Shown: positions 1-19,155 of the stretch, piece after piece
Numbering within the stretch: the stretch's first letter is position 1
Layout: each line of letters starts with the position of its first letter
Assembly: GCA_947623595.1 (NCBI GenBank)
Contig: CANQHC010000004.1
Coordinates: forward strand, 1-64,000
Length of the DNA: 64,000 bases
Reading direction: 5' to 3'
Source of the DNA: an uncultured Clostridia bacterium
Lineage (GTDB): Bacteria; Bacillota; Clostridia; TANB77; CAG-508
Position numbers and translations under genes: made by a program
Notes under the pieces: generated by a model
What the model saw: the letters and a program-made list of their open reading frames with translations, nothing else
The model's database searches: none
What the model was told of the DNA's origin: nothing

Positions 1-17
1 TAGTAGCTTTTTTTATA

Positions 18-52
18 CCAAAAATGAGTGAAAATTTTTCACTCATTTTTGG
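18..52. repeat. Perfect 17-bp inverted repeat
   Basis: Arms at 18-34 and 36-52 are perfectly complementary around one central base. The structure is flanked by T-runs on one side and A-runs on the other, so it could terminate transcription in either direction. It is the outermost of four hairpins downstream (minus-strand sense) of the FGE-fold gene fragment. No gene is seen in 1-313. Confidence 0.7.
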
Positions 53-81
53 ATAGGACTTTTTTTACAGCCCCTTTACTT

Positions 82-131
82 GCGCTTTTTCTAAGTTTGC
101 TATCAAAAGTCCGCAAACGCAGAAAAAGCGC
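82..131. repeat. Nested stem-loop downstream of FGE-fold fragment
   Basis: GCGCTTTTTCT (82-92) pairs with AGAAAAAGCGC (121-131). Inside it GTTTGC (95-100) pairs with GCAAAC (113-118), giving a long two-part stem with a 12-nt loop. The G+C content is well above the surrounding sequence. Confidence 0.65.
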
Positions 132-137
132 CACGCT

Positions 138-199
138 AGTGGAAAATTTAAGTCTTCTTACGAGCTTTTCAGCTCGAAGTACACATTAAATTTTCCACT
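138..199. repeat. 62-nt hairpin with inner GC stem
   Basis: The 13-nt arm at 138-150 pairs perfectly with 187-199. An inner CGAGCT (161-166) / AGCTCG (171-176) stem closes a TTTC loop. It lies in the same non-coding stretch as the other hairpins behind the FGE-fold fragment. Confidence 0.65.
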
Positions 200-236
200 C
201 CTCGCGTATTTCATTCGTTACATTCATCCAATTCGC

Positions 237-264
237 TAGAGTAGTTCTTGAAAAAACTACTCTA
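237..264. repeat. 10-bp perfect hairpin
   Basis: TAGAGTAGTT (237-246) and AACTACTCTA (255-264) are separated by an 8-nt loop. This is the hairpin closest to the stop codon of the FGE-fold fragment, 50 nt away. Confidence 0.6.
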
Positions 265-313
265 TCACTTCTAAAATACTCCCTTCTTCTAATCCCTCAT
301 ACAGCAGGCAGTG

Positions 314-538
314 CTACTTCACATAAAGTGTAGAGCGTGAACCATAGCCGCTAGCGCTAAAGTACGGACTGCTGAGGTCGCGGTAACAAGTTGAATAGCG
401 AGAACCGGAACCGCCGTAAGAGCCCCCTCTACTAACACGAAAGTCGGCTTCGTCGGCCTCTAGTGTCCATTCTCTTACATTTCCTGCCATGTCGTAGATG
501 TTATTTACTATATTTGCTATTTTGCCATTTTTGATTAG
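314..538 (-). pseudogene. 3' fragment of an FGE-sulfatase (SUMF1) fold gene, possible retroelement target
   Basis: On the minus strand 538-314 reads as 74 codons ending in TAG, with no start codon and an in-frame stop immediately before the fragment. The peptide contains NNIYDMAGNVREWT and then SRGGSY, the conserved C-terminal core of the formylglycine-generating-enzyme / C-type-lectin fold, and ends STLYVK. From the second G of RGGSY through the S of the closing GSRS, 28 of 31 codons end in C or T, unlike the A-ending codons of this genome. That pattern is what A-to-N mutagenesis of AAC/AAT template codons by a diversity-generating retroelement would leave. No reverse transcriptase or template repeat is in this window, so the retroelement link is inference. 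The FGE-fold assignment is secure; function is presumably lost unless it acts as a donor cassette. Confidence 0.75.
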
Positions 539-609
539 TTAACATAAACTTTGCATAATACAAATAGAGTACCGGTAATCTAAATATTTTTAAAGGAGAT
601 TATAAAAAT

Positions 610-660
610 ATGAAAAGAAAATTTAAAAAATCAAAAAGTAGCTATTTTAAACTTTATTAA
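610..660 (+). CDS. Possible 16-residue basic peptide upstream of excisionase
   Basis: An ATG 9 nt after AAAGGAGAT (592-600) opens a 16-codon frame rich in Lys, Ser and Tyr (MKRKFKKSKSSYFKLY). The ribosome-binding site is good and the frame ends 36 nt before the excisionase gene. Short leader-like frames occur in front of recombination genes of mobile elements, but nothing here proves translation or function. Confidence 0.35.
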   Translation: MKRKFKKSKSSYFKLY

Positions 661-696: not shown

Positions 697-1005
697 ATGG
701 AAGAATTAAATAATTTATCTGAAAAAATATCAAGTGAAATACAAAACACAGAAACAAAAAATATAGTAATTGAAACAAAAGAAATATTAACACCAGAACA
801 AAGAATGGCAATAGACACAATAATGAGAGTAAAAAATCCGTTTATAATGCTTACTGTAAAAGACGTTATGCGTGATTTAAACATTTGCGAAACTGTAGCA
901 TACAAAACATTTAAAAGAGCTGACTTTCCATCAATTAATGTAGGAAAAAATAATCAAGTAATGTTACTTGCCTACTTAATATGGAAAATGAGCAAAAGAG
1001 TTTAG
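697..1005 (+). CDS. Excisionase-like helix-turn-helix DNA-binding protein
   Basis: The product is a 102-residue protein. Residues about 50-100 contain TVKDVMRDLNICETVAYKTF followed by a Phe-Pro-x-Ile-x-Val-Gly segment, the usual layout of winged helix-turn-helix excisionase (Xis) proteins of Tn916-type elements. The first 45 residues are charged and poorly conserved. The start follows AGAAAGG by about 10 nt. It overlaps or abuts the integrase gene, so the pair is probably one transcript, as expected for Xis-Int modules that balance integration and excision. Family assignment rests on motif and context. Confidence 0.7.
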   Translation: MEELNNLSEKISSEIQNTETKNIVIETKEILTPEQRMAIDTIMRVKNPFIMLTVKDVMRDLNICETVAYKTFKRADFPSINVGKNNQVMLLAYLIWKMSKRV

Positions 1006-1016
1006 GTGGTGATAGT

Positions 1017-2261
1017 ATGGAAAAAAGTAAAAAAGAAAAAATTGCTAGTATTTATTATGACAAAAATCGTAAAAACTGGCGTTGCACATATTACATATAT
1101 GAAAAAGATACGCAAGAAGAAACAAGAAAAACAAAATCATTTTTAACTGAACAAGAAGCTAAAGATTTTTTGACAACTATTCAATACCAAAAAGGAAATG
1201 AACTATTTATAAAAAATAATGGAATACCATTAAATCAACTTATGAGAGAAAATTTACAAAGAAAATTAGACATGAATTTAATAGGAGATAGAAGTTATAT
1301 AAGAATAATGGAAAGTATAAAAAAAAATGAAAAAAGCCCTATGTCAAAGAAAAACATTAATGAAATAACAAGCAATGAAATCCAAAATTACTTGAATTCA
1401 TTAAAAGATTACAGCAACTCAACTATTAAGAAAGTAAAAGAACAATTTTCACAGGCATTTAGAGATGCTGTAAATAAAGGATATATTATAAGAAATCCTA
1501 TGTTAGAAGTAATAAGACCCAAAAGCACACAAATACGAAAACCTGTAAGAGCATTAGAAATTGAAGAACAACAAAAATTAACTAATTACTTAATGAGTGC
1601 ACCTATTGCAGAGGTTCCATTTAAAGTATTATATTTAATTCAAATGTATTTAGGACTTCGTATAGGAGAGGCTTTAGCATTACGTAGTACAGACATAAAT
1701 TTACATAGAAATCTAATTACAGTTGATAAGACTTTGTCAAAAGATAAAGAAGGTAAAATAATAATGAAATACATGCCTAAAACTTATGCAGGAATTAGGG
1801 AAGTTCCTATACCAGTTTTCATAAGAAATGAAATAATAAATCAAATGAGATTAGCTGAAAACAACAAAGATAAACAATTATTTTTAGATAAAAATGAAAA
1901 TTATGTAAGACCTGAAAATGCTAATAGAAGATTAAGAGAATTAATGAAAGAAATGAGCATACAAGGTATATCTTCACATAGTTTACGTCATACTTATGGA
2001 ACTAGGTGTATTGAAGCAGGAATGAGAGCTGTTGCACTACAAAGGTTAATGGGACATTCTGACGTAGCAATAACGCTAAATACATATACTTCTGTTTTCA
2101 ATAAATATAAGGAAACAGAATTAGAAAAGGTTAATAACTATTATATGAACAATGAAATTGTAAGTGCAGAAAGTTTACTTACAGAGAATAATAATATAAT
2201 TCAAAGTACAGCTATTGAAAGAGAAAATACTAATTATGAAAATGAACAACATGAAAGATAA
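1017..2261 (+). CDS. int: Tyrosine recombinase / integrase
   Basis: The enzyme is a 414-residue site-specific recombinase. Residues about 8-50 resemble the arm-DNA-binding domain of Tn916/phage integrases, 60-160 the SAM-like core-binding domain and 180-370 the catalytic domain. Catalytic residues are visible: Arg215 in LGLRIGEAL, His321-x-x-Arg324 in HSLRH, the GHS box and the nucleophile Tyr357 in NTYTSVF. The start is placed at 1017 because AGGTGGTGAT precedes it; an upstream in-frame ATG at 981 lies inside the excisionase gene and lacks an SD. The gene lies 0.64 kb from the 3' end of a tRNA-Leu gene, with short repeats between, the standard layout for an element integrated in a tRNA gene. 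Confidence 0.9.
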   Translation: MEKSKKEKIASIYYDKNRKNWRCTYYIYEKDTQEETRKTKSFLTEQEAKDFLTTIQYQKGNELFIKNNGIPLNQLMRENLQRKLDMNLIGDRSYIRIMESIKKNEKSPMSKKNINEITSNEIQNYLNSLKDYSNSTIKKVKEQFSQAFRDAVNKGYIIRNPMLEVIRPKSTQIRKPVRALEIEEQQKLTNYLMSAPIAEVPFKVLYLIQMYLGLRIGEALALRSTDINLHRNLITVDKTLSKDKEGKIIMKYMPKTYAGIREVPIPVFIRNEIINQMRLAENNKDKQLFLDKNENYVRPENANRRLRELMKEMSIQGISSHSLRHTYGTRCIEAGMRAVALQRLMGHSDVAITLNTYTSVFNKYKETELEKVNNYYMNNEIVSAESLLTENNNIIQSTAIERENTNYENEQHER

Positions 2262-2304: not shown

Positions 2305-2416
2305 GCTGTGGAAAAGGGTTACAACACTTTTTCATTTGTGTTATATTAGCTTAAAATTAGAGTATTAGAACATAAGTAAATCTTATGAAGCCTTGCTAAA
2401 ATAAATAAAAAAATAA

Positions 2417-2614
2417 TTTAGAGCTGAAAAAGTACAAGCAGAAAATTATATCTTAAAGCGAGAAAATGAAACTTTAAAAACTGAAGTTATAAAACTTAAA
2501 GATTATATTGATAAGGCTTTTGAATATATCAGCTTACTTTTTGACTTTTCAAAAGATAAATTAAAACGATTAGTCAATTCATTTATAGACAAATTTAACC
2601 ATGAAAAATTATAA
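2417..2614 (+). pseudogene. C-terminal remnant of a mobilisation (Pre/Mob-type) protein
   Basis: A frame without a start codon, preceded by an in-frame stop, encodes about 65 residues ending at TAA 2612-2614. The sequence (ENYILKRENETLKTEVIKLKDYIDKAFEYIS...) is a leucine-heptad coiled coil followed by a basic tail. It resembles the C-terminus of MobV/Pre-type plasmid mobilisation proteins found on small clostridial elements. The catalytic N-terminal part is absent, so this is a relic. The family call is from memory of such tails and is moderate. Confidence 0.5.
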
Positions 2615-2631
2615 AAAATGTTAAATATGGT

Positions 2632-2896: not shown

Positions 2897-2984
2897 TGGT
2901 GCAGATGGCCGGAATCGAACCGGCACGGTTTATTCAACCGCAGGATTTTAAGTCCTGTGCGTCTGCCAGTTCCGCCACATCTGC
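2897..2984 (-). tRNA. tRNA-Leu (anticodon UAA)
   Basis: The 88-nt minus-strand sequence starts GCAGATGTGGCGGAA and ends in an encoded CCA. The acceptor stem GCAGATG/CATCTGC, a long variable arm typical of class II tRNAs, the T-arm GGTTCGATTCC and the anticodon loop CTTAAAA inside CAGGA/TCCTG are all visible. The anticodon reads UAA (leucine). Its 3' end faces the integrase and is the likely integration target. Confidence 0.95.
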
Positions 2985-6443: not shown

Positions 6444-8048
6444 ATGGCTAGCTGTTTAGGAATGTATATAGAACCAAATATAATTAAATATGCCAAAGTT
6501 TCAAAAGATCATGACATTTTGACAGTAGAGTCATTTGGAATAAAATTTTATGATAAATTAGGTGATGCAATAAAACAAATAATAGAAGATACTTATAGCT
6601 TTAAAGTACCAATTAGTATTAATTTATCTGAAGAAGTTTATGATTATTTTTATATGTTTAGCTTATTAACTAAAAATGATATGAAAAAAGCAATAGCAAC
6701 AGAATTTGAATCATATTGTGCAGAAAAACAAATAAATAGAAATGCTTTAGAAACAAGATATGCACTTGTTAATAGCTTAGATGACAAAGACAGAGTAAAA
6801 GTAATTCATATTTCAGTAAATAAAGCAACACTTGATACTATGTCTCATGATTTTGGAGACCATACAGTTACATCTATTACACCACTTGGAATTAGTATAT
6901 CCAATCTTGCTAACTTAAATCCAAAAGAAAATGTTGCTATTATTAATATGGAAAAAGAAACAACATTAACAACAATAGTAGACCAGAAAATATATTCAGT
7001 AGATAAAATCCCAGAAGGCTCAGGAACTGTGCTAGACAGCATTAATTTGAAGGAAAATTCATATTCAAAAGCATATGAAATATGCAAAAACACAACTATT
7101 TATACAATGGAAGGTAAAGAATTACAAGATGAGGCAAATGAATATCTAGAAGACATTATGCCTACAGTTTATCAAATTGCAAATAAAGCAAAAGAAATAA
7201 TTAATACTAATAATGTAAAAATAGATAAAATTTATATAACAGGAACCTTAACTGTAATAAATAATATAGACTTATATTTTCAAGAATTCTTTTCAACTGA
7301 AAAATGTGAAATATTAAAACCATTTTTCATTAAAGATACAGTAAAAATTAGTATGCAAGATTATATAGAGGTAAATTCAGCACTTGCATTAGCTTTACAA
7401 GGTTTAGAATATGGTTTAAGAGATATTAATTTTAAAAAAGTAACATGGAAAAATCAACTATCAGCAATTTCCTTTGGAAAAGGTGATAATAGTAAACAAG
7501 AAAGTAAATTTAGTTTTGAATTAGGTGGAGAATTAGATAATGCTGATATATGGCTTCTTCGCACAGCTGGGGGAATACTATTTTTAACCATTATATATAT
7601 ATGTTTTTCTATGTTTTTAAATAGTGGTATTTCAAAGAAAAATTCAGAAGTTGCTGATGTAAAAGCAGACACTCAGTTACAAATGCTTGCGATAACAGAG
7701 GATATATCAAATGTAAATGCAAAGGCAAACCAATATATACAATTAAAAGATAATTTAGAGAATATTAGAAAAGAAGTACAAGAAAAAAATAAAACAAAAA
7801 AAACAATACCTAATTTATTAAGCCAAATAATGTTTTCGATTCCACAAGGAGTGCAAATTACTTCAATTGAAAATACAACAAATAATCATATCGTAATAAA
7901 GGCACAAGCAAGACAGCATGAGCAATTAGGCTATTTTAAAGCAATTTTAAGAACGCAAGGAATTTTAAAATCGGATACAGTTGTTTCTACAAATGGAGTA
8001 AAAGAGAATGATTTAGTCAAAATTGTAATAGAAGGAGAGTTGCCATGA
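6444..8048 (+). CDS. pilM: Type IV pilus assembly protein, PilM-PilN fusion
   Basis: The 534 residues combine two normally separate pilus proteins. Residues 1-345 resemble the cytoplasmic actin-like ATPase PilM, and the N-terminus (GMYIEPNIIKYAKVSKD) matches the first phosphate-binding strand. A transmembrane helix at about residues 372-392 (LLRTAGGILFLTIIYICF) is followed by a coiled coil and a ferredoxin-like C-terminal region as in PilN. In other systems PilM binds the short cytoplasmic tail of PilN; here they are covalently joined. It is the first gene of the pilus operon. AAAGGAG precedes the start and the gene overlaps the next by 4 nt. Confidence 0.8.
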   Translation: MASCLGMYIEPNIIKYAKVSKDHDILTVESFGIKFYDKLGDAIKQIIEDTYSFKVPISINLSEEVYDYFYMFSLLTKNDMKKAIATEFESYCAEKQINRNALETRYALVNSLDDKDRVKVIHISVNKATLDTMSHDFGDHTVTSITPLGISISNLANLNPKENVAIINMEKETTLTTIVDQKIYSVDKIPEGSGTVLDSINLKENSYSKAYEICKNTTIYTMEGKELQDEANEYLEDIMPTVYQIANKAKEIINTNNVKIDKIYITGTLTVINNIDLYFQEFFSTEKCEILKPFFIKDTVKISMQDYIEVNSALALALQGLEYGLRDINFKKVTWKNQLSAISFGKGDNSKQESKFSFELGGELDNADIWLLRTAGGILFLTIIYICFSMFLNSGISKKNSEVADVKADTQLQMLAITEDISNVNAKANQYIQLKDNLENIRKEVQEKNKTKKTIPNLLSQIMFSIPQGVQITSIENTTNNHIVIKAQARQHEQLGYFKAILRTQGILKSDTVVSTNGVKENDLVKIVIEGELP

Positions 8049-8818
8049 GAAAGATTTTAATAGTTGTTGTTATTCTTTTATTACTAGTTATATCATACTG
8101 TGCCATTTTTAGAGGTATTTCATTAGGTAGTTTTTCAATATTAAGTGTATCACAAATAGCAGATGCAAATGCAAAATTAGAAAATGAAATTGCCATAACT
8201 CAACAGCTTATGAAGGGAGAATACCAAACTAAAACAGCAGAACTTGAAACTAGTATTTCGACTTTATTAGAAGCTAAAACAAATTATTACGATTTAGCTG
8301 GAGTTAGTACTGATGGTGAAATTCAAAAAGCCAATCAGGATGAAATATATACACCAGAATTCTTACTTGCAACATTTGGTAGACATGCTACTTCACAGGG
8401 GGTAAATTTGAATTATGAAATTTCTCCAGTTGGAAGTTCAGCAGATAAATTATCAAATATAAATTTTACGGTTAATGGGGGATATATTCAAATAATAAAC
8501 TTTATAACCGCAATAGAAGATGATAGTAAACTTGGATTTAGAATTCAAAATTTTAAGATGGAACAAGGTACAGGTGAAGGAAATATAAGAGCTCAATTTT
8601 TAGTAGCAAATGTTAAAATTAATCAAGAAATTAACGATAATAATGGAGGAGATTCAGAGACTCCAAGTGATTCTAATACTGAAGTTAATAATGATAATGA
8701 AAGTACAGAAAGCAATACTGAAACAAACACAACAACAGAAAATACCGAAAATACTGAAACAAACACAACAACAGAAAGTGCCGAGGGTACTGAAACAAAT
8801 ACAACAACAGCAGAATAA
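8045..8818 (+). CDS. PilO-like pilus assembly protein with low-complexity tail
   Basis: The 257 residues have one N-terminal membrane helix (about residues 4-24), a coiled-coil region (about 38-85) and a globular part (about 105-200), the architecture of the PilO inner-membrane subunit. From about residue 205 the protein is a repeated Asn/Thr/Glu tail (NTETNTTTENTE units). The start overlaps the previous stop (ATGA), preceded by GAAGGAGAG, so translation is coupled. Assignment as PilO rests on gene order and topology more than sequence. Confidence 0.65.
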   Translation: MRKILIVVVILLLLVISYCAIFRGISLGSFSILSVSQIADANAKLENEIAITQQLMKGEYQTKTAELETSISTLLEAKTNYYDLAGVSTDGEIQKANQDEIYTPEFLLATFGRHATSQGVNLNYEISPVGSSADKLSNINFTVNGGYIQIINFITAIEDDSKLGFRIQNFKMEQGTGEGNIRAQFLVANVKINQEINDNNGGDSETPSDSNTEVNNDNESTESNTETNTTTENTENTETNTTTESAEGTETNTTTAE

Positions 8819-8866
8819 AATGTTTTAACTTATCAAAAAAAGTATATATGCGTAAAGGAGAAAAAA

Positions 8867-9415
8867 ATGATTAAGTCAGTTTTAAAGGAAATATGTATAA
8901 TGTTATTACTATGTATTGCCATTGTATTACTTTTAGGAGTTATATTTTATGACTATATTCCAACTAATAAAGCGATTCCAAATAAATTATCAGCATATGA
9001 AACTCCTGAAAATGTGCAAAATGAACTTAGTGAACAAATAATGGAAGAAACTGCTTCACCTGTAAATTATACAATTAATGGTGCTGATTTAAAATTATAT
9101 AAGCAAACTAATAGTTATGTGGCAGGAAAGCCAGATCCATTTTCGGCAAGTATTATATCAAATGATAATACAAACAATGTAGGCACAGGAAACAATAACA
9201 ATTCTAATAATAACAATGGCAATGGCAATAATAATAGTAACAGCAATAACAATAATAACAATAATAATAACAATAGCAATAATAACAATAACAGCAATAA
9301 CAACAATAATAACAATAGCAATAATAACAATAATAATAACAGCTCTAGTGAAACAAGTACTGGAACAGATCCAAACTCAACAGGTACATTCTTCAATAAT
9401 ACGGGTCTTAAATAA
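8867..9415 (+). CDS. PilP-like lipoprotein-sized protein with Asn-rich tail
   Basis: The 182 residues comprise a membrane helix (about residues 7-28), a linker, and the sequence AGKPDPFSA at about residues 86-94, which resembles the (G/K)xxDPF box of PilP-type alignment-complex proteins. About 65 residues that are almost entirely Asn with some Ser and Gly follow, encoded by AAC/AAT/AGC trinucleotides. The gene sits between the PilO-like gene and the pilin, where PilP is expected. The trinucleotide tract can change length without shifting frame. Confidence 0.55.
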   Translation: MIKSVLKEICIMLLLCIAIVLLLGVIFYDYIPTNKAIPNKLSAYETPENVQNELSEQIMEETASPVNYTINGADLKLYKQTNSYVAGKPDPFSASIISNDNTNNVGTGNNNNSNNNNGNGNNNSNSNNNNNNNNNNSNNNNNSNNNNNNNSNNNNNNNSSSETSTGTDPNSTGTFFNNTGLK

Positions 9416-9479
9416 TTTCGGTTATATTTATTAACATAAATATATACAAAATAATCTAAAGAGAAAGGAGTAAAGAGGC

Positions 9480-9941
9480 ATGAAAAAAACAAATGGGCAA
9501 TCAGGTATTACCTTAATTGCGTTAGTAGTTACAATTATTGTACTATTGATTTTAGCTGGTGTTACAATTAACTTTGTATTATCAGATGGAGGTATTTTCG
9601 GTAAAGCAAAAGAAGCAGGATCAGCAACAAAAGTGGCTGCAGTTAAAGAATATATAAACAATGCTATAACTACTATGTTCTCTGAAATTGCATCAACTGG
9701 AAAGGCTTCATTAGAATCTACTACAATAGATTCAATTTTAGCTGCAAGTATTCCAAAAAATGCTGATACAGATACGTATGCATTTACAGAAAAAACAGTA
9801 ACATACGCAGTTGATACAGGTGTGGTAATTAAACTTACAGGAACTGTTACAAGTTCAGGAGTAACGTATGATGTCAAGTATGATAGCAGTTCAACAACCA
9901 ATAATACTGTCCAAGTTACAGTTCATACTGATGCTGAATAA
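9480..9941 (+). CDS. pilA: Type IV pilin-like protein (probable major pilin)
   Basis: This 153-residue prepilin has the short leader MKKTNGQSG followed by ITLIALVVTIIVLLILAG, a class III signal in which cleavage is expected after the Gly. The remainder is a 125-residue head rich in Thr, Ala and Val (TSSGVTYDVKYDSSS). Position +5 of the mature protein is Ala rather than the usual Glu. GAAAGGAG lies 11 nt upstream. Position between the assembly genes and the peptidase supports the pilin role. An almost identical N-terminus heads the BspA-repeat protein encoded at 17.6-19.2 kb. Confidence 0.8.
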   Translation: MKKTNGQSGITLIALVVTIIVLLILAGVTINFVLSDGGIFGKAKEAGSATKVAAVKEYINNAITTMFSEIASTGKASLESTTIDSILAASIPKNADTDTYAFTEKTVTYAVDTGVVIKLTGTVTSSGVTYDVKYDSSSTTNNTVQVTVHTDAE

Positions 9942-9995
9942 AATTAAAATTTGTGAAGTATATAAAATTAATAGTAACAAATATGATAAAATGAA

Positions 9996-10030
9996 GGGCA
10001 TATGCGCATATTTTAAAAGTGTATATGCCT
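9996..10030 (+). promoter_or_regulatory. Stem-loop between pilin and peptidase genes
   Basis: GGGCATATGC (9996-10005) pairs with GTATATGCCT (10021-10030) with two G-U pairs and a 15-nt loop. There is no T-run, so it is more likely an RNA-processing or stability element that raises pilin mRNA above its neighbours than a terminator. Confidence 0.5.
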
Positions 10031-10066
10031 CGAATTTTACAAATCAAATTATTATGAGGAAGAGAA

Positions 10067-10882
10067 ATGAACATAATTTTATACATAATCATTTTTATAA
10101 TTGGTTCGTTATTTGGTAGTTTTTTTACTTTAGCAGTATATCGTATACCACTCAATCAAGATATTACACATAAGCGTTCATATTGCCCAAATTGTAATCA
10201 TAGATTATCATTCTTAGATCTAATTCCTATTGTTAGTTATTTATGTCTAGGAGGAAAATGTAGATATTGCAAACAAAAAATAAGACCAAGATATTTATGT
10301 TTAGAAATTTTATCTGGTATAGTTTTTGTTTTATTTGCTATGTCAATAAAACTAAATATATTTTCATTTGTAGAGAATATTCCACTAATAATTTACTTTT
10401 GCTTTAGCTTATTATATTTTGTTACATTATTTATTATTGCAGGAATAGACAAAGAAAAACATGAAATACAAAAATCAGTTTTGTTATTTGGTTATATAAT
10501 AGAAATAGTTTATATAATTTATCTATATATAGTAGGTGCAGATACTAATATATATAAATATGTTATATATTTGGCATTAATAGCCATTATAGAGTTTTTA
10601 AATATAATCATATTAAGGAAGAAAGCTGAAAATAATTATACTCTTGAAATTCTAGGCTTAGTAATCTTATTATTAGCGTTCACATATGAAGCAGTTACTA
10701 TTTTAACAATCAATTTTACATTATTAGTTATTGCATTTTATTTGTTAATAAAAAAGATAGTAAATAGATTTAATAAAAAGAAAAAGAGTTCAACTAAGCC
10801 AGAAGTTATACCAATAGGTTTTTTATTATGTATAACCAATATAATATGTTTCATTACTGCCAATTTTTATATTTTTAGATAA
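10067..10882 (+). CDS. pilD: Prepilin peptidase (type 4) with altered second aspartate motif
   Basis: This 271-residue membrane aspartyl protease and N-methyltransferase matures pilins. The N-terminal GSLFGSFFTLAVYRIP and the zinc-type cysteines CPNC...CRYC with RPRYLCLEILSG are intact, as is the first catalytic Asp in AGIDKEKHEI. The expected GxGD second motif, about 62 residues later, reads KKAENNYTLEILGL, with Asn or Glu where the catalytic Asp should be. Seven or eight hydrophobic segments are present. The gene sits between the pilin and the minor pilins. Family is certain; activity is uncertain. Confidence 0.82.
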   Translation: MNIILYIIIFIIGSLFGSFFTLAVYRIPLNQDITHKRSYCPNCNHRLSFLDLIPIVSYLCLGGKCRYCKQKIRPRYLCLEILSGIVFVLFAMSIKLNIFSFVENIPLIIYFCFSLLYFVTLFIIAGIDKEKHEIQKSVLLFGYIIEIVYIIYLYIVGADTNIYKYVIYLALIAIIEFLNIIILRKKAENNYTLEILGLVILLLAFTYEAVTILTINFTLLVIAFYLLIKKIVNRFNKKKKSSTKPEVIPIGFLLCITNIICFITANFYIFR

Positions 10883-10920
10883 ATTACATAAAAGCATAAT
10901 AAAAGAAAGGATTTTGGGTC

Positions 10921-11340
10921 ATGAAAATAGCAAAGAAATTTTTAAAATCAAATAATGGTTTTACATTACAAGATGCTGTAGTAGCAGCAATGCTATTTAC
11001 GATTTTCATAGGCGTAATTGCTAGCATATATTTGACAATATATAGAATACAAGGCGAAACTATAATTAACTCAAGAGTTAATATCTTCATGATCCAGATA
11101 ATGGAAAGAATAGACTTAATCAGTTATGAAGAAGCGAATGAAAATTACTTAAATAGCCAACTAAATGTAGAATGGAAAGAAGAATTTGAAATACCTAATG
11201 ATCTTAGTATAACGGCTCAAGTTATTCCTAGCGAATATGAATTTGATGTTATAAAAACGGTAAAATTAAATTTTAGCTATATGGTTGGAGATAAAGTACA
11301 AAATATTTCTGTAGAAAAACTAAAAGTGAAGGAAACATAA
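10921..11340 (+). CDS. Minor pilin / pseudopilin
   Basis: The product is 139 residues with leader ...KSNNG and then FTLQDAVVAAMLFTIFIGVIAS, a class III prepilin signal with Phe at +1 and Asp at +5. After the hydrophobic helix a head of about 95 residues follows. It is similar in size to PilV/GspI-type minor pilins, which prime pilus assembly. AGAAAGGA precedes the start by about 10 nt. Confidence 0.7.
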   Translation: MKIAKKFLKSNNGFTLQDAVVAAMLFTIFIGVIASIYLTIYRIQGETIINSRVNIFMIQIMERIDLISYEEANENYLNSQLNVEWKEEFEIPNDLSITAQVIPSEYEFDVIKTVKLNFSYMVGDKVQNISVEKLKVKET

Positions 11341-11403
11341 AAATTTATATTCTGAGCTAACAAATAAAATTGGTTAAATTATAAAATTAAGAGGAGAAAA
11401 TTC

Positions 11404-11850
11404 ATGAAATCGCAAAAAGGCATTACTTTAATTGCATTAGTAATTTATGTTATAGTTGCTACAATTGTAATAGGCACTATGGCAACTCTTAGTGCGTTTT
11501 TCTTTTCAAATGCAAATAATATAAAAGGGCAAGAAGAATATGCAGTAGAATATAATAAATTTAACATGTTTTTCGTTAATGATGTAAAAAATAATCAAAC
11601 TGCAGAAATAACAAATGGAGATGTTAAAAAAATTAAATTTGCAGATGAAACAACTTATGAATGGAGAGATGGGTCGATATATAGAAATGATAAAAAAATT
11701 GCAACTAATGTAAATAGTGTTGAAATTTCTTCTAGAGTGGTTAAAAGAGGAGGAGAAACAACTCAGAAAACTGTAATCACTGTGGAAATGGATATAGGAG
11801 TTAGAAATTCATTAAAAAAATCAATTGAATATGTTTTAAAATATTGGTAA
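11404..11850 (+). CDS. Minor pilin / pseudopilin
   Basis: The product is 148 residues. MKSQKG precedes ITLIALVIYVIVATIVIGTM, a prepilin-type helix lacking Glu at +5. The head domain has strands such as IKFADETTYEWRDGSIYRNDKKI, like the PilW/GspJ-type minor pilins. It is preceded by AGAGGAG and lies in the pilus operon upstream of pilB. Confidence 0.68.
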   Translation: MKSQKGITLIALVIYVIVATIVIGTMATLSAFFFSNANNIKGQEEYAVEYNKFNMFFVNDVKNNQTAEITNGDVKKIKFADETTYEWRDGSIYRNDKKIATNVNSVEISSRVVKRGGETTQKTVITVEMDIGVRNSLKKSIEYVLKYW

Positions 11851-11938
11851 ATTAATGTAAATGTCGAAAATCATACAAATACAAATTAAGATATAGTATA
11901 ATAAAAATATACTAAAGAAAAGAGAAAGGAGAAATTAA

Positions 11939-13561
11939 ATGGATAGAGGTCAACCATTAGGAATAGAATTAGTTAGAATGGGCATTGTAAATCAAGGTGA
12001 TATTCAAAAGGCTTTAGACTATCAAAAACAACATTCAAAAAAGAAAATAGGTGATATTCTTAATATATTAGGATTATGTGATCCCAACGTTTTAATAAAT
12101 GCAATAGGAGAAATTCTTAATGAGAAGGCAATCTTATTAACAATTAATGATGTAAAAATAAACATATTAGACTATATAACACTGGATTTAATAAAACAAA
12201 ATAAAGCTGTTCCATTTGAAACTGCTCAAGGAAGAATAAGAGTATGCTTTGCAGACACTTCTAACAAAAGGTCAATAGATGTAATTCGTCTTTTATTATT
12301 AAATAAAGGCTTAGTAATGGAAAAATACATTACTTTTGAAAGTAATATAGATAAAATAATAAATAGCTTAGAAGGAACTGCTACAGAAAAAATAGACGCA
12401 GATGCAGACATATCTGGTTTAGTTGATAGTATTATAAAATCAGGAATAGAAAAAAGAGCAAGTGATATTCATATAGAGCCATTAGAAGAAAGTGTAAGAG
12501 TAAGATATAGAATAGATGGTCGTCTATTTACAGCAGTACAAATTAATAAGGAAAAGCAACAGCAAATTATAGGCAGGTTAAAGGCAATATCAAACATGCA
12601 TCAGGAAAAACAAGAATCGCAAGATGGTAGAATTCTTTCATATCCAGACTATAATATTCGTGTATCCTCACAAAAAAATATTTATGGAGAAAAATTCGTT
12701 TTAAGGTTGCTTAAGAAAAACGGAAATGTTCGTGAAATATTTGATTTAGGTTTTCCAAGAGACGAACAACTTGTTAAAAGAAGTTTTAACAAAAGAAATA
12801 GTATTACAGTAATTGCAGCACCAACTGGTGAAGGTAAAACAACTACCTTGTACAGTATTATAAATTACTTAAATAATCCACACATAAATATTTCTACAAT
12901 TGAAGACCCAGTAGAAATTAGAATCAATGGTTTAAATCAAATTGAAGTTGATGCAAAAGCAAACTTTGCTCATTCATTAAGAACAATTCTAAGACAAGAT
13001 CCTGATATTATTCTTGTTGGAGAAATTCGTGACTTGGAAACAGCAGAGATTGCAATGCAAGCTGGTCAAACAGGACACTACGTATTATCAACTATACATA
13101 CTATTGACAGTATTGAGGTTATTACAAGGCTTAGAAAAATGGGAATTTCTAATTATGATATATCAAGTATTTTAGCAACTTCTATTTCACAAAGATTAGT
13201 AAGAAGAATTTGCAAAAATTGTGCTGTAGAAAGAGATTATACTGAACAGGAAAAACAAATTATGACAGAAATTGCTTCAAAATATGGAGAAAAAATTGAT
13301 TTTACAGGAAAGAAAACTTATGAGGCAGTAGGATGCAAAGAGTGTAATCAAAGTGGTTATTTAGATAGAATTGGTATTTTTGAAATATTGAATGTTGATG
13401 ATACAATTAAAGATTTAATATCAAGGGATGCCTCAAGTATGGAAATAAGAAAAACAGCATTAGAAATTGGATATAGGCCATTAATAATAGATGGATTCCA
13501 AAAAGTATTAGAGGGGATTACTACTTTAGACGAACTAAATAATAAATTAGCAATTTACTAA
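11939..13561 (+). CDS. pilB: Type IV pilus extension ATPase PilB
   Basis: This 540-residue GspE/PilB-family hexameric ATPase powers pilus polymerisation. Residues 1-145 are the MshE/T2SSE N-terminal domain. The catalytic part has KRASDIHIEP, Walker A APTGEGKTTTLYS (about residue 296), the Asp box TIEDPVE, Walker B RQDPDIILVGEIRD and the His box QTGHYVLSTIHT. A zinc knuckle CKNC...CKEC lies near residues 423-480, typical of extension rather than retraction ATPases. AGAAAGGAG precedes the start. Confidence 0.95.
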   Translation: MDRGQPLGIELVRMGIVNQGDIQKALDYQKQHSKKKIGDILNILGLCDPNVLINAIGEILNEKAILLTINDVKINILDYITLDLIKQNKAVPFETAQGRIRVCFADTSNKRSIDVIRLLLLNKGLVMEKYITFESNIDKIINSLEGTATEKIDADADISGLVDSIIKSGIEKRASDIHIEPLEESVRVRYRIDGRLFTAVQINKEKQQQIIGRLKAISNMHQEKQESQDGRILSYPDYNIRVSSQKNIYGEKFVLRLLKKNGNVREIFDLGFPRDEQLVKRSFNKRNSITVIAAPTGEGKTTTLYSIINYLNNPHINISTIEDPVEIRINGLNQIEVDAKANFAHSLRTILRQDPDIILVGEIRDLETAEIAMQAGQTGHYVLSTIHTIDSIEVITRLRKMGISNYDISSILATSISQRLVRRICKNCAVERDYTEQEKQIMTEIASKYGEKIDFTGKKTYEAVGCKECNQSGYLDRIGIFEILNVDDTIKDLISRDASSMEIRKTALEIGYRPLIIDGFQKVLEGITTLDELNNKLAIY

Positions 13562-13595
13562 GATTTTAATTTTGTAAAATACATAGGAGGAGTAT

Positions 13596-14723
13596 ATGAT
13601 AGATATAGAGAACATATTAACACAAGCCATTGAAAAGGATGCATCAGATATACATTTAATTGCAGGAAATAAGCCAATAATAAGAATTAGGAGAGAACTA
13701 GTAGAGGTAGATGGTTTTGACGTTTTAACACCTGATGATATGGTAGAAATATATGATTATTTAGTAAGAGGAAATATAGAAAAGGATCAAATTTATAAAG
13801 AAACAAGAAAATTAGATTGTTCTATGGAATTTGGAGATATAAGGCTAAGGGTAAATATTTCATCCTCAGATGATGTGCCTACAGCTGTACTCAGAATAAT
13901 AAAGAGTACTCTACCCAAATATGAAGATTTAGGTGTTCCAGATATTGTTAGTAGAATGATGTATCAACCACAAGGGTTAATATTAGTAACAGGAAAAACA
14001 AACTCTGGTAAAAGTACTACATTAAATGCATTAATTAATAGAGTAAATGAGGAACAAAATAAAAAGATATTAACTTTGGAAAGCCCTATAGAGTTTAGAC
14101 ATAAATCTAAAAAGTCAATTATTGTACAAAAAGAAGTTGGTTTAGGAAGGGATTGTAGAAACTTTAGCGAAGGTACCAAAAACTCTTTAAGAGAGGACTG
14201 CGATATTCTAGTTATAGGAGAGATTCGTGATAGAGAAACGATGGAAGCTGCAATTGAAACAGCAGAATCTGGACACTTAGTAATAGGAACATTACATACC
14301 AAGTCATGTGCGGAAACTATTGATAGAATGATTAACTTTTATGAAATTCGTGACCAACAAACTGTAAAATTTTTAATTGCATCTTTATTAAAATTAGTTG
14401 TATCACAAAGGCTTTTAAAAGGTAGGGATAATTCACTTGTTTTAGTACCAGAAGTAATGGTAGTAGATAGTATAGTTGCAGGTATGATTCGTAAGGAAAA
14501 AATTAGCGTTTCTGAAATTGAGGATGCTATTCAAAGTAGTAGTGAAAAAGGAAGTATTGGTTTAATTAATTCTTTAGCCCAATTATTTGTAGATGATAAA
14601 ATTACTTTAGATCAAGCTAAAGCTCAAATTGAAGAAAAGAATATTGAAGTATTAAATAGAACAATAATGCAATTAAAGATAAAAAGAGATAGCCAAGCAA
14701 AATCTATGAATCCAGGGTTTTAA
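13596..14723 (+). CDS. pilT: Type IV pilus retraction ATPase PilT
   Basis: This 375-residue protein drives pilus disassembly, giving twitching or uptake. It shows KDASDIHLIAG near the N-terminus, Walker A VTGKTNSGKSTTLN, Walker B DCDILVIGEIRD and the His box ESGHLVIGTLHT. It lacks the PilB zinc knuckle and N-terminal domain, which marks it as PilT. The Walker A has Lys-Thr-Asn where most homologues have Pro-Thr-Gly. CATAGGAGGAG precedes the start. Confidence 0.92.
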   Translation: MIDIENILTQAIEKDASDIHLIAGNKPIIRIRRELVEVDGFDVLTPDDMVEIYDYLVRGNIEKDQIYKETRKLDCSMEFGDIRLRVNISSSDDVPTAVLRIIKSTLPKYEDLGVPDIVSRMMYQPQGLILVTGKTNSGKSTTLNALINRVNEEQNKKILTLESPIEFRHKSKKSIIVQKEVGLGRDCRNFSEGTKNSLREDCDILVIGEIRDRETMEAAIETAESGHLVIGTLHTKSCAETIDRMINFYEIRDQQTVKFLIASLLKLVVSQRLLKGRDNSLVLVPEVMVVDSIVAGMIRKEKISVSEIEDAIQSSSEKGSIGLINSLAQLFVDDKITLDQAKAQIEEKNIEVLNRTIMQLKIKRDSQAKSMNPGF

Positions 14724-14828
14724 ACTTTATATCTATTATAAATTCCACTCGAAATTGTATGTTTTTCAATAATCTTGAGTGAAATAAAAAAGTTATATTA
14801 TAGCAAAATACTAAAGGAGGGAGATAAA

Positions 14829-16181
14829 GTGCCAGAATACGTATACAGAGCTATAACGAAAAATGGACAAATTGTACGTAATAAAGTAGAAGAGGCAAGT
14901 AAAAATAACCTTATAAGAAAATTAAAAGGCAATGATTTAATGCCAATAGAAATAGTACAAACAAGTTATAGCAGAATAAAAAAGAGAAAGGTAACTAGAA
15001 AAAATGGTATTGATGTTGATGATATTATGAAAACAGCTAACTCAGCATCTGTATTACAAGGAAGAGTTAGTACAAAACCATCAACTAGAGAAAAAATTAA
15101 CTTGCTTTTAGCAGCAGGTCAAAGAATTACAGAAAGAGATATTATAATTTTTACTCAGAACTTTTATTTATTAAAAAAGGCAAATTTTAATAATATACAT
15201 GCACTAAGTACAATTATAAGCAGTACTGAAAACCTGTCATTTAAGGGAGTTTTACAGGATATTTTAGCAGGTGTTGAAGCTGGAGAGTATATGTATACAA
15301 CAATGGAGTATTATGATAATATATTTCCTTTTATATACATTAATATGATTAGGGTAGGAGAACTTTCAGGATCTCTTACAAAATCTCTTGAACAAGCAGT
15401 TACATATCTTGAAGATACTAGCGCAAGGAACAAGAAAATAAGAAGTATTTTACTCCCAAACATTGCGCAATTTATTGGAATATTTTTATTACTTATTGCA
15501 GGAACAATATTTGTATTACCAGCTATTCAAGACGTATTTGCGTCGGTGGGTGGCAATGCAAGTTTGCCAGAAATTACACTATCATTTATGAGCTTTATAG
15601 ATCTCTTGAAAGTTTATTGGTATATACCAGTAGGAATTATTGGTATCATTGTAGCCATTTTTTTTAGCTACATAAATACACCAAGAGGAAAATATAACTG
15701 GCATTACTTTAAATATAAAGCACCTGTATTTGGAAGGTTAATTTTTGGAATTGATTTTTCAAGACTAATGAGAGCTATGTTATTAAACTTGCAAAATGGT
15801 ATGAGAATTCAGGAGTCATTGGAAGTTAGTAAATCAGTTGTAAAAAATTATGTTATGCTATCAATAGTAGAAACTTCTATTAACAGTTTATTAGCAGGAG
15901 GGTCATGGATTGAGCCATTTGAAAAATCAGGATTATGTTCACCAATGGAAATAGAAATGTTAAAAATAGGTATGCAAACAGACTTATCAGAAATGATGGA
16001 AAAAATGCTGGACGTTATGGATATGGATATTCAACAAAGTTTAAACAAGATTATGAAGATATTACCAGAAATTTCATATTCATTTGTTGGTATATTATTA
16101 ATTTTCTTAGTAGTTGTTGTACTTGTACCTTGTATTCAATTATACATGGGAGATTGGCTACTTGAAGCAAATGGATTCTAA
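14829..16181 (+). CDS. pilC: Type IV pilus inner-membrane platform protein PilC
   Basis: The GTG at 14829 follows AAAGGAGGG and gives the family-typical start PEYVYRA; an upstream TTG at 14775 has no SD. The 450 residues contain the two GspF domains with three membrane segments (about residues 215-240, 272-298 and 420-445). It anchors the PilB/PilT motors at the membrane. A weak hairpin (14747-14781) precedes the SD. It is the last gene of the pilus operon. Confidence 0.93.
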   Translation: MPEYVYRAITKNGQIVRNKVEEASKNNLIRKLKGNDLMPIEIVQTSYSRIKKRKVTRKNGIDVDDIMKTANSASVLQGRVSTKPSTREKINLLLAAGQRITERDIIIFTQNFYLLKKANFNNIHALSTIISSTENLSFKGVLQDILAGVEAGEYMYTTMEYYDNIFPFIYINMIRVGELSGSLTKSLEQAVTYLEDTSARNKKIRSILLPNIAQFIGIFLLLIAGTIFVLPAIQDVFASVGGNASLPEITLSFMSFIDLLKVYWYIPVGIIGIIVAIFFSYINTPRGKYNWHYFKYKAPVFGRLIFGIDFSRLMRAMLLNLQNGMRIQESLEVSKSVVKNYVMLSIVETSINSLLAGGSWIEPFEKSGLCSPMEIEMLKIGMQTDLSEMMEKMLDVMDMDIQQSLNKIMKILPEISYSFVGILLIFLVVVVLVPCIQLYMGDWLLEANGF

Positions 16182-17571: not shown

Positions 17572-19155
17572 TTATCGATATTCAACACTTTTTGTGACAC
17601 AACCAGTAAACATTTCAAAGGCATTACCTTTCGGAACAACCCATAATTCCTGACTAACAAATACATGTTCTAATTTAGTACAGCCACGAAACATTTCATT
17701 CATACCAGTAACATTACTTGTATCAAAACTAGTTAAATCCAAAGTTGTAAGAGCCGCACAGTCAGCAAACAATAAGGTCATATTATCAATTTTTCGTGTG
17801 TCAAAATTACTTACATTTAAACTTGCCAAACTAGAACATTTATAAAACATTTCCCTTATTTCAGTAGCACTACTTGTATCAAAATTGCTTAAATCTAAAT
17901 TTGAAATTTTTTCACAACCATAAAACATTTGTGACATATTTTTTACTTTACTTGTGTTAAAATTTTTTAAATTCAAACTTGTTAGGCTTTTACAGTTTTC
18001 AAACATACTTTCCATATTAAGCACAGAACTTGTATCAAAACTACTCAAATCCAGACTTATAAGCGCACTACTTTCACTAAACATGTTATACATACTAGTT
18101 ACTTTACTTGTGTCAAAACTACTCAAATTCAAACTTTTTAAGCTTTTACACCAACTAAACATTGACGTCATATTAGTCATTTCACTTGTGTTAAAATTAC
18201 TAACATCCAAACTCGTTAAGTTATAACAACTAATGAACATTGACGTAACATCAGTTACTTTACTCGTGTCAAAATTACTCAAATTCAAACTTATAAGTGA
18301 TTCACAGCCACTAAACATAGAAGACATATCAGTCACATTACTTGTATTAAAACTACTTACATTTAAACTTTCTAAATTCGAACAGTCCATAAACATTTGG
18401 TGCATATCAGTTACATTACTTGTATCAAAATTACTCAAATCCAAACTTTTTAAGTTAGTACACCAACCAAACATTCCATACATAGAAGTTACATTACTTG
18501 TATTCAAATTGTTAATGCCTTCTATATTAGTCATGTCACAACCCCAAAACCACCAAGCCGTACTTTCTGGAGCAATTACATCTAAAAATTTAACAGTTTT
18601 TATATTATCGCTTTCACTGTACCATGGGGCTTTATTAAAAATATTTCCTTTTATATTCCCATAGCTTATTCCTTCTGGTAAATTTTCTTTTTTACTACTA
18701 AATGTTAATGTTCCATCATCGGATAATACTACATATATATCCGTTGGCTCCACTGGAATATATTCTTTTACCTTCCCATTTGATGATATTTCATAGCTTT
18801 TTCTTTCTCCTTTAAATTTCCAAGGTCCTTCTCCTTTAAAAGTATCATTTGTTACTTTATCTGCTCCAAATTTATTTTTTAATGCATTTTTTACATTTTC
18901 TGTTGAAAGCGTTCCTGTTCCATTAATTAGTGCATCTGTAACTGCTAGTTTTACTTGTTCTTCTTCTGTTACATCTTTTGTTATTTCATCTGCTTGTCCA
19001 GCCCTTCCTATAATTCCATTTTTCCCAATTAACATATTAATTGATATTCCTGCTAATATCAAAAGTACAATTATGGTTATGACTAACGCAATAAGTGTAA
19101 TACCATCAACATTTCTTTTAAAATTTTTAATAATTTTTGTTCCTTTCTTTGTCAT
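17572..19155 (-). CDS. Pilin-headed BspA-repeat (DUF285) surface protein
   Basis: The 527 residues begin with a basic leader ending ...NVDG, followed by ITLIALVITIIVLLILAG, a class III prepilin signal nearly identical to that of the pilin at 9480. Residues 50-200 form a linker and small domain. About eleven consecutive 26-residue repeats of the form TSNVTDMxxMFxxCxxLxSLxLSxFD follow, the BspA/DUF285 leucine-rich family seen on bacterial adhesins. It is predicted to be processed and displayed by the pilus apparatus. The ATG at 19155 lacks an SD; an AAGAAAGGA lies just inside the frame, so the true start is uncertain. Confidence 0.8.
   Translation of the reverse strand: MTKKGTKIIKNFKRNVDGITLIALVITIIVLLILAGISINMLIGKNGIIGRAGQADEITKDVTEEEQVKLAVTDALINGTGTLSTENVKNALKNKFGADKVTNDTFKGEGPWKFKGERKSYEISSNGKVKEYIPVEPTDIYVVLSDDGTLTFSSKKENLPEGISYGNIKGNIFNKAPWYSESDNIKTVKFLDVIAPESTAWWFWGCDMTNIEGINNLNTSNVTSMYGMFGWCTNLKSLDLSNFDTSNVTDMHQMFMDCSNLESLNVSSFNTSNVTDMSSMFSGCESLISLNLSNFDTSKVTDVTSMFISCYNLTSLDVSNFNTSEMTNMTSMFSWCKSLKSLNLSSFDTSKVTSMYNMFSESSALISLDLSSFDTSSVLNMESMFENCKSLTSLNLKNFNTSKVKNMSQMFYGCEKISNLDLSNFDTSSATEIREMFYKCSSLASLNVSNFDTRKIDNMTLLFADCAALTTLDLTSFDTSNVTGMNEMFRGCTKLEHVFVSQELWVVPKGNAFEMFTGCVTKSVEYR

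Follow-up and report, generated by a model that had tools for sequence, protein, structure and literature searches.

Positions 1–64,000 of contig C4 of an uncultured Clostridia bacterium (the window; 64,000 nucleotides in all) begin at the very end of that contig, in an assembly of 85 contigs and 1.9 Mb that is 97.7% complete and not closed. An initial annotation of the first 538 nucleotides described the 3' end of a gene with the formylglycine-enzyme (FGE) fold, and proposed that the window either begins at the edge of a diversity-generating retroelement (DGR) or holds an orphan variable-region (VR) cassette carried on a mobile element. The questions addressed here are whether this gene end is the VR of a DGR target, how it came to lie beside the neighbouring DNA, and whether it is likely to be in use.

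A gene end with an unusual codon pattern

The minus strand has an open frame from 538 to 317, with the stop codon at 314–316; its translation is LIKNGKIANIVNNIYDMAGNVREWTLEADEADFRVSRGGSYGGSGSRYSTCYRDLSSPYFSASGYGSRSTLYVK and its C-terminal end reads NNIYDMAGNVREWTLEADEADFRVSRGGSYGGSGSRYSTCYRDLSSPYFSASGYGSRSTLYVK. It matches the Pfam family FGE-sulfatase slightly below threshold (E = 2.5e-4; 21.2 bits, with a curated cut-off of 23.3). The frame and the FGE match proposed for 314–538 were thus recovered, but about the first 9 codons (approximately 515–538) belong to mobile-element DNA. After the motif RGGSY, C or T is the last base in 27 of 33 codons; the run is real, with 27 of the first 31 codons by our count and not 28 as first given, and the codons before RGGSY do not have this bias (18 of 36). 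In the long ORFs of the window, an average of 44% of codons end in C or T and 47% in A, and only 5 of the 14,277 segments of 33 codons in these ORFs reach 27 C/T-ending codons, which confirms the excess over the preference of the genome.

Comparison with template repeats

Homologues of the fragment are present in the same genome on contigs C62 and C68, where they are intact, and in sister species; it shares 46–52% identity with the C-termini encoded at C62, C68, L086, L088, L089 and L092. Alignment with C62, C68 and four sister-species genes yielded the fixed framework NIYD.AGN..EWT.EA...R..RGG.Y..SGS..PAS.R....P...SR with variable positions between, and at the DNA level the variable codons are mostly NNC or NNT.

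A complete DGR of the same type, in the order target, Avd, reverse transcriptase (RT) and template repeat (TR), was found at locus L122 of a rabbit-gut Clostridia MAG (Table 1). The window VR differs from the L122 TR at 33 of 47 adenines and at 15 of 76 other bases (Fisher p = 2.7e-8, odds ratio 9.6). The VR of C62 differs from the same TR at 20/48 adenines and 1/78 other bases (p = 3e-9) and that of C68 at 32/48 and 11/78 (p = 1.9e-9). The adenine bias of the window VR recurs with other TRs of the genus, for example with that of G002 (32/50 adenines, 17/90 other bases). About 19–26% of the non-adenine bases differ between the window VR and its best TRs, so that it is adenine-biased but near-identical to no TR found. 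This divergence exceeds that of a freshly rewritten VR; it means either that the cognate TR is missing from the sample or that the relic has undergone decay.

A TR serving the window VR would be expected to resemble AATCGTGGGGGCAATTACAAC.... Searches of the assembly with an IUPAC pattern allowing 3 mismatches, with the VR DNA and with the L122 TR returned VRs only; no RT matching the window VR was found in this incomplete assembly, and neither RT nor Avd adjoins it. Since the assembly has no TR or RT able to serve this VR, its link to a DGR is drawn from sister species and homologues. On the strength of these comparisons, namely the adenine-biased mismatches to sister TRs and the homologous target genes, 314–514 is the 3' end of a DGR target gene including its VR, as first suggested for a gene with a C-type-lectin (CLec)/FGE fold.

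DGRs in the genome and in the genus

The absence of any RT or TR from the genome, which would have spoken against the initial proposal, does not apply here. Contig C49 of the same genome carries an Avd gene (bAvd, E = 9.6e-24), an RT gene whose product has the IGNYTSQ motif of DGRs, and a TR/VR pair that differs over 37 nt at 8 adenines and at no other base; this TR serves a different target than the window VR. In sister species, a scan for near-repeats differing only at adenines detected convincing TR/VR pairs in ten loci (L093–L097, L102, L104, L108, L109 and L111), with 7–25 adenine mismatches and 0–3 others. RT matches at E ≤ 1e-10 were obtained in 36 of the 57 genomes searched, not all of them necessarily to DGR RTs. 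The RT of contig C57 (L015, 1375–2649) was rejected as a DGR RT, being of the group II intron type with the motif QGGxxSP.

TR loci L212, L214–L218 and L228 have conserved flanks (GGGATAAATCAAAAGGCC... and CTCTAATACAA...CAGATAATATATTTTAAGGAATATA), which are probably part of the template-RNA scaffold. Compared with L122, contig C62 (L018, 2514–3342) has lost RT and TR by deletion and retains a fused Avd remnant; the VR of C62 nevertheless agrees with the L122 TR at almost every non-adenine position. Identity between C62 and L122 is 99% over a 285-bp segment of Avd and 85% over the main flank, a difference that suggests recent exchange. On contig C54 (L041, 243–1725), a tandem target array has its third gene broken into frames of 409 and 93 aa, which gives this genome another kind of orphan VR fragment. 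DGR targets are present in several copies per genome, often without an RT nearby, and some lie beside integrative mobilizable elements (IMEs).

Table 1. Features of the window and of related loci
Feature	Sequence	Position	Strand	Remarks
IS end	window	1–74		terminal inverted repeat GGGGCTGTAAAAAAAGTCC at 56–74 (reverse complement) and hairpin 18–52; repeat common to C19, C29, C75 and L176
Inverted repeat downstream of VR	window	82–131		19-nt arms; DNA fold -16.5 kcal/mol, z -5.5
Inverted repeat downstream of VR	window	138–199		29-nt imperfect arms; fold -20.1 kcal/mol, z -8.8
Inverted repeat nearest to VR	window	237–264		13-nt arms, 50 bp past stop; fold z -4.7
Target-gene 3' fragment, about 67 codons	window	314–514	-	prepilin-like CLec/FGE family, without prepilin N-terminus; homologue C-termini 46–52% identity; Pfam FGE-sulfatase
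VR	window	326–458 (approx.)	-	from alignment with sister-species TRs
Breakpoint, target-gene fragment/element DNA	window	513–516		element homology of L208 (G003) and L211 (G027) stops at 515, where target-gene homology begins
Element DNA upstream of integrase module	window	515–651		90–92% identical in G003 and G027
Small protein gene, xis-like by position	window	697–1005	+	directly upstream of and overlapping integrase; no Pfam match
Tyrosine integrase of IME	window	981–2261	+	Phage_integrase E = 4.7e-21; identity 93% (G003), 85% (G001), 74% (G027)
Mob_Pre relaxase, C-terminal remnant	window	2416–2620	+	rest deleted; 89% DNA identity with L208 relaxase 3' region
tRNA-Leu(taa), apparent integration site	window	2897–2984	-	same arrangement in G003 and G001
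Major pilin, type IV pilus operon	window	9480–9941		start same as in prepilin-like targets; identified by reading the sequence
Prepilin peptidase, type IV pilus operon	window	10067–10882		identified by reading the sequence; pilus ATPase genes also after pilin
Prepilin-like CLec/FGE target	L122	1932–3383		complete DGR locus
Avd	L122	4011–4481		bAvd E = 8.6e-18
RT	L122	4462–5514		RVT_1 E = 1.1e-20; motif IGNYTSQ
TR	L122	5578–5710		complete DGR locus
(CA)n tracts	L041 (C54)	1780, 4301, 6402
(CA)n tract	L017 (C68)	1624
(CA)n tract	L016 (C49)	1995

The intact target protein

Among 82 related loci, 32 of the 57 complete ORFs begin with a prepilin-like sequence such as GITLIALVVTIVVLLILAG, and many of the remaining ones have another hydrophobic N-terminal stretch. 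Since the Glu5 usual in type IV pilins is replaced by Ala in these targets and their scores with Pfam N_methyl (19.6 and 19.3 bits) are just below the cut-off of 21.2, 'prepilin-like' is the safe wording. A profile search with the family matched SUMF2 (E = 3.6e-7), the DGR protein TvpA (E = 0.0012) and, weakly, the type IV pilin PilE1 (E = 0.038). An AlphaFold model of the family was of modest confidence (mean pLDDT 65); its best Foldseek match was TvpA, with TaqVP and Mtd also listed, all with E-values above 0.001. A CLec/FGE fold with a C-terminal VR was therefore recognized at the family level (Pfam, PDB profile and Foldseek), the window holding the tail of the fold only. NCBIfam gave no informative match to the target proteins. 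As the family had just 2 matches in viral contigs, it is not mainly phage-borne.

The window also contains a type IV pilus operon (6444–16181), located 3.5 kb from the integration site and comprising PilM/N/O-like genes, PilB, PilT and PilC as well as the pilin and peptidase genes in Table 1. At 17572–19155 (minus strand), a protein with BspA-like repeats has the same prepilin-like N-terminus (GITLIALVITIIVLLILAGI), suggesting that the prepilin-like stem also serves other surface proteins.

Junction with an integrative mobilizable element

The DNA of the IME in G003 and G027 matches the window leftwards as far as 515 and continues there into other element DNA; these sister copies do not contain the target-gene fragment. 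The element has the composition of an IME: integrase and tRNA-Leu are present in the window, together with a relaxase remnant, and the relaxase is intact in G003 (L208; Mob_Pre, E = 8e-38) and in G001. In the stretches read, conjugation machinery is absent from the element. The repeat of the tRNA 3' end that would mark the far att site was sought across the genome and found nowhere else, and no relatives of the integrase were found in viral contigs. In G027, a target gene is located beside an HTH gene, a xis-like gene and an integrase of the same element type, an arrangement which suggests how a target gene came to adjoin the integrase module.

The target gene itself is not complete and has no export signal: about 67 codons are left, the upstream part is replaced by element DNA, and the copy has neither the prepilin stem nor most of the CLec domain. 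The proposal of an orphan VR cassette on a mobile element came close to this arrangement, in which a 5'-truncated VR is fused to an IME.

Inverted repeats and the IS end

Four inverted repeats (18–52, 82–131, 138–199 and 237–264) fold well beyond shuffled sequences, with z from -4.7 to -8.8. The four strong hairpins reported within 300 bp are thus all present, but they are not a single DGR feature, since that at 18–52 belongs to an IS. The first 76 bp of the window also form the end of contig C19, and the inverted repeat GGGGCTGTAAAAAAAGTCC lies close to contig ends in C29 and C75 and, in L176, flanks an intact transposase gene (DUF772/DDE_Tnp_1_6 type) on either side. Because these sequences recur at other contig ends and around the L176 transposase, the contig break at position 1 and the hairpin at 18–52 are attributed to the IS, which we take to be IS1182-like. 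A set of four DGR cruciforms was ruled out on the same ground, one hairpin being that of the IS.

Long inverted repeats similar in appearance to 138–199 also follow some other VRs of the family (L118, L126 and L130). Inverted repeats downstream of family VRs are stronger than those at the other ORF ends of their loci (mean score 9.0 vs 7.0, p = 9e-7; 77 vs 395 ends). Since just 23% of the family VR ends reach a stem score of 12 or more, no DGR role is claimed for them.

Origin of the fragment

The results can be accommodated by the following scheme: i) in its intact relatives, the gene encodes a surface protein with a prepilin-like N-terminal helix, a spacer and a C-terminal CLec/FGE-fold domain containing the VR; ii) the helix would be cleaved and the protein exported by the machinery of the type IV pilus operon at 6444–16181; iii) a DGR, with Avd and RT, copies the template RNA with errors at adenines and overwrites the VR, turning AAC/AAT codons into NNC/NNT codons, which accounts for the run of C/T-ending codons; and iv) a deletion or recombination would have fused the integrase module of the element, at the tRNA-Leu gene, to the tail of the target gene, with the IS on the other side. 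The segment 314–514 is thus very probably the severed, VR-bearing 3' end of a DGR target gene, left behind by recombination. Lacking an export signal and all but the tail of the CLec fold, the copy is most likely a non-functional relic.

It is unlikely that the fragment is a live cassette, either still subject to rewriting by a trans-acting DGR or kept as a silent donor for recombination into full-length targets, like the pilS cassettes of Neisseria. Its VR is open, the framework positions are conserved and hairpins follow, and the existence of several targets per genome without an adjoining RT implies action at a distance or donors. However, the assembly contains neither an array of such cassettes nor a TR, the 15/76 non-adenine mismatches to the L122 TR, compared with 1/78 for C62, argue against recent rewriting by a TR of that type, and the element copies of the sister species do not have the fragment.

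An intact DGR whose edge lies at the start of the window, with RT and TR just left of position 1, is very unlikely; that the window opens at the border of an active system was not supported. The contig does end there in an unclosed genome, and DGR repeats can break assemblies, but position 1 lies inside an IS end whose 76 bp also terminate C19, so the break was caused by a multicopy IS; moreover, the missing 5' part of the target, most of which is lost, would be expected on the right-hand side, which consists of element DNA instead. Least probable is an ordinary FGE-sulfatase-like fragment with no DGR history and with a codon bias due to horizontal transfer: although FGE-sulfatase is the Pfam family matched, and domains of this type are also encountered where there is no DGR, the substitutions cluster at adenine positions of homologous TRs, the C/T bias is absent from the codons before RGGSY, and the contrast of 20/48 with 1/78 for C62 excludes chance TR/VR pairs.

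(CA)n tracts upstream of the prepilin-like genes

All 20 matches to (CA)10 in the genome fall into five tracts (three on C54 and one each on C49 and C68), and every tract precedes a prepilin-like gene of the kind described above. Every one of these tracts lies in a short ORF whose translation ends ...A[VL]HTHTHTHT. Tracts of (CA)10–27 in leader ORFs were also observed in other genomes (L230–L245); when tracts there were located by the repeat alone, a prepilin-like gene followed in most cases with enough sequence. The tally stands at 18 of 24, with some tracts of the own genome counted twice because their loci overlap. The leader of L232 runs in frame into the prepilin. These leaders may be a means of slipped-strand phase variation on top of DGR diversification.

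Taken further, the surface proteins of the genus might vary in two layers, with many dispersed prepilin-anchored CLec proteins spread by IMEs, diversified by DGRs acting partly at a distance and switched on and off by (CA)n slippage, the fragment in the window being debris of this system. We regard this broader picture as tentative and somewhat doubtful.

Relation to known systems

The family resembles TvpA of Treponema denticola, TaqVP of Thermus aquaticus and Mtd of a Bordetella phage in fold, in the C-terminal position of the VR and in adenine-driven substitutions. TvpA is a lipoprotein. Unlike such a lipoprotein or a tail fibre, the Clostridia proteins usually have a prepilin-like N-terminus, and the copy in the window is truncated. 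Compared with IMEs that carry a Mob_Pre relaxase and a tyrosine integrase and insert at a tRNA gene, the element shares relaxase, integrase, HTH regulator and tRNA-Leu site (G003 and G001); in the window, however, most of the relaxase has been deleted and the integrase side is occupied by a fragment of a DGR target.

According to work cited in PMC12632263, DGRs of Bacteroides diversify the tip pilins of type V pili. These are likewise DGR-diversified, fibre-type surface proteins of gut commensals, but the type V pili of Bacteroidales have no relationship with the type IV-like prepilins considered here. Putative pilin structures have been mentioned among targets of the DUF1566 type (PMC6642488). 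In the survey of Roux et al. 2021 (PMC8144416), cellular DGR targets had an N-terminal transmembrane segment or signal peptide and a C-lectin VR, and Firmicutes were enriched; its main text does not mention pilins, and by its own statement targets remote from the RT were undetectable, whereas such targets are frequent in the present genus. No paper pairing 'diversity-generating retroelement' with 'prepilin' was found in a literature search whose range excluded preprints and most subscription papers, and which is therefore weak evidence on novelty.

Taken alone, the fragment in the window is a relic, but it points to a genus in which DGR-type RTs are widespread and multi-copy targets are often remote from the RT, the diversified domain being borne by a prepilin-like stem. 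Many such targets would escape surveys in which a VR must lie beside the RT. If the (CA)n leaders and the DGRs do act on the same genes, these gut commensals would offer a directly testable example in which phase variation and targeted hypermutation are combined.
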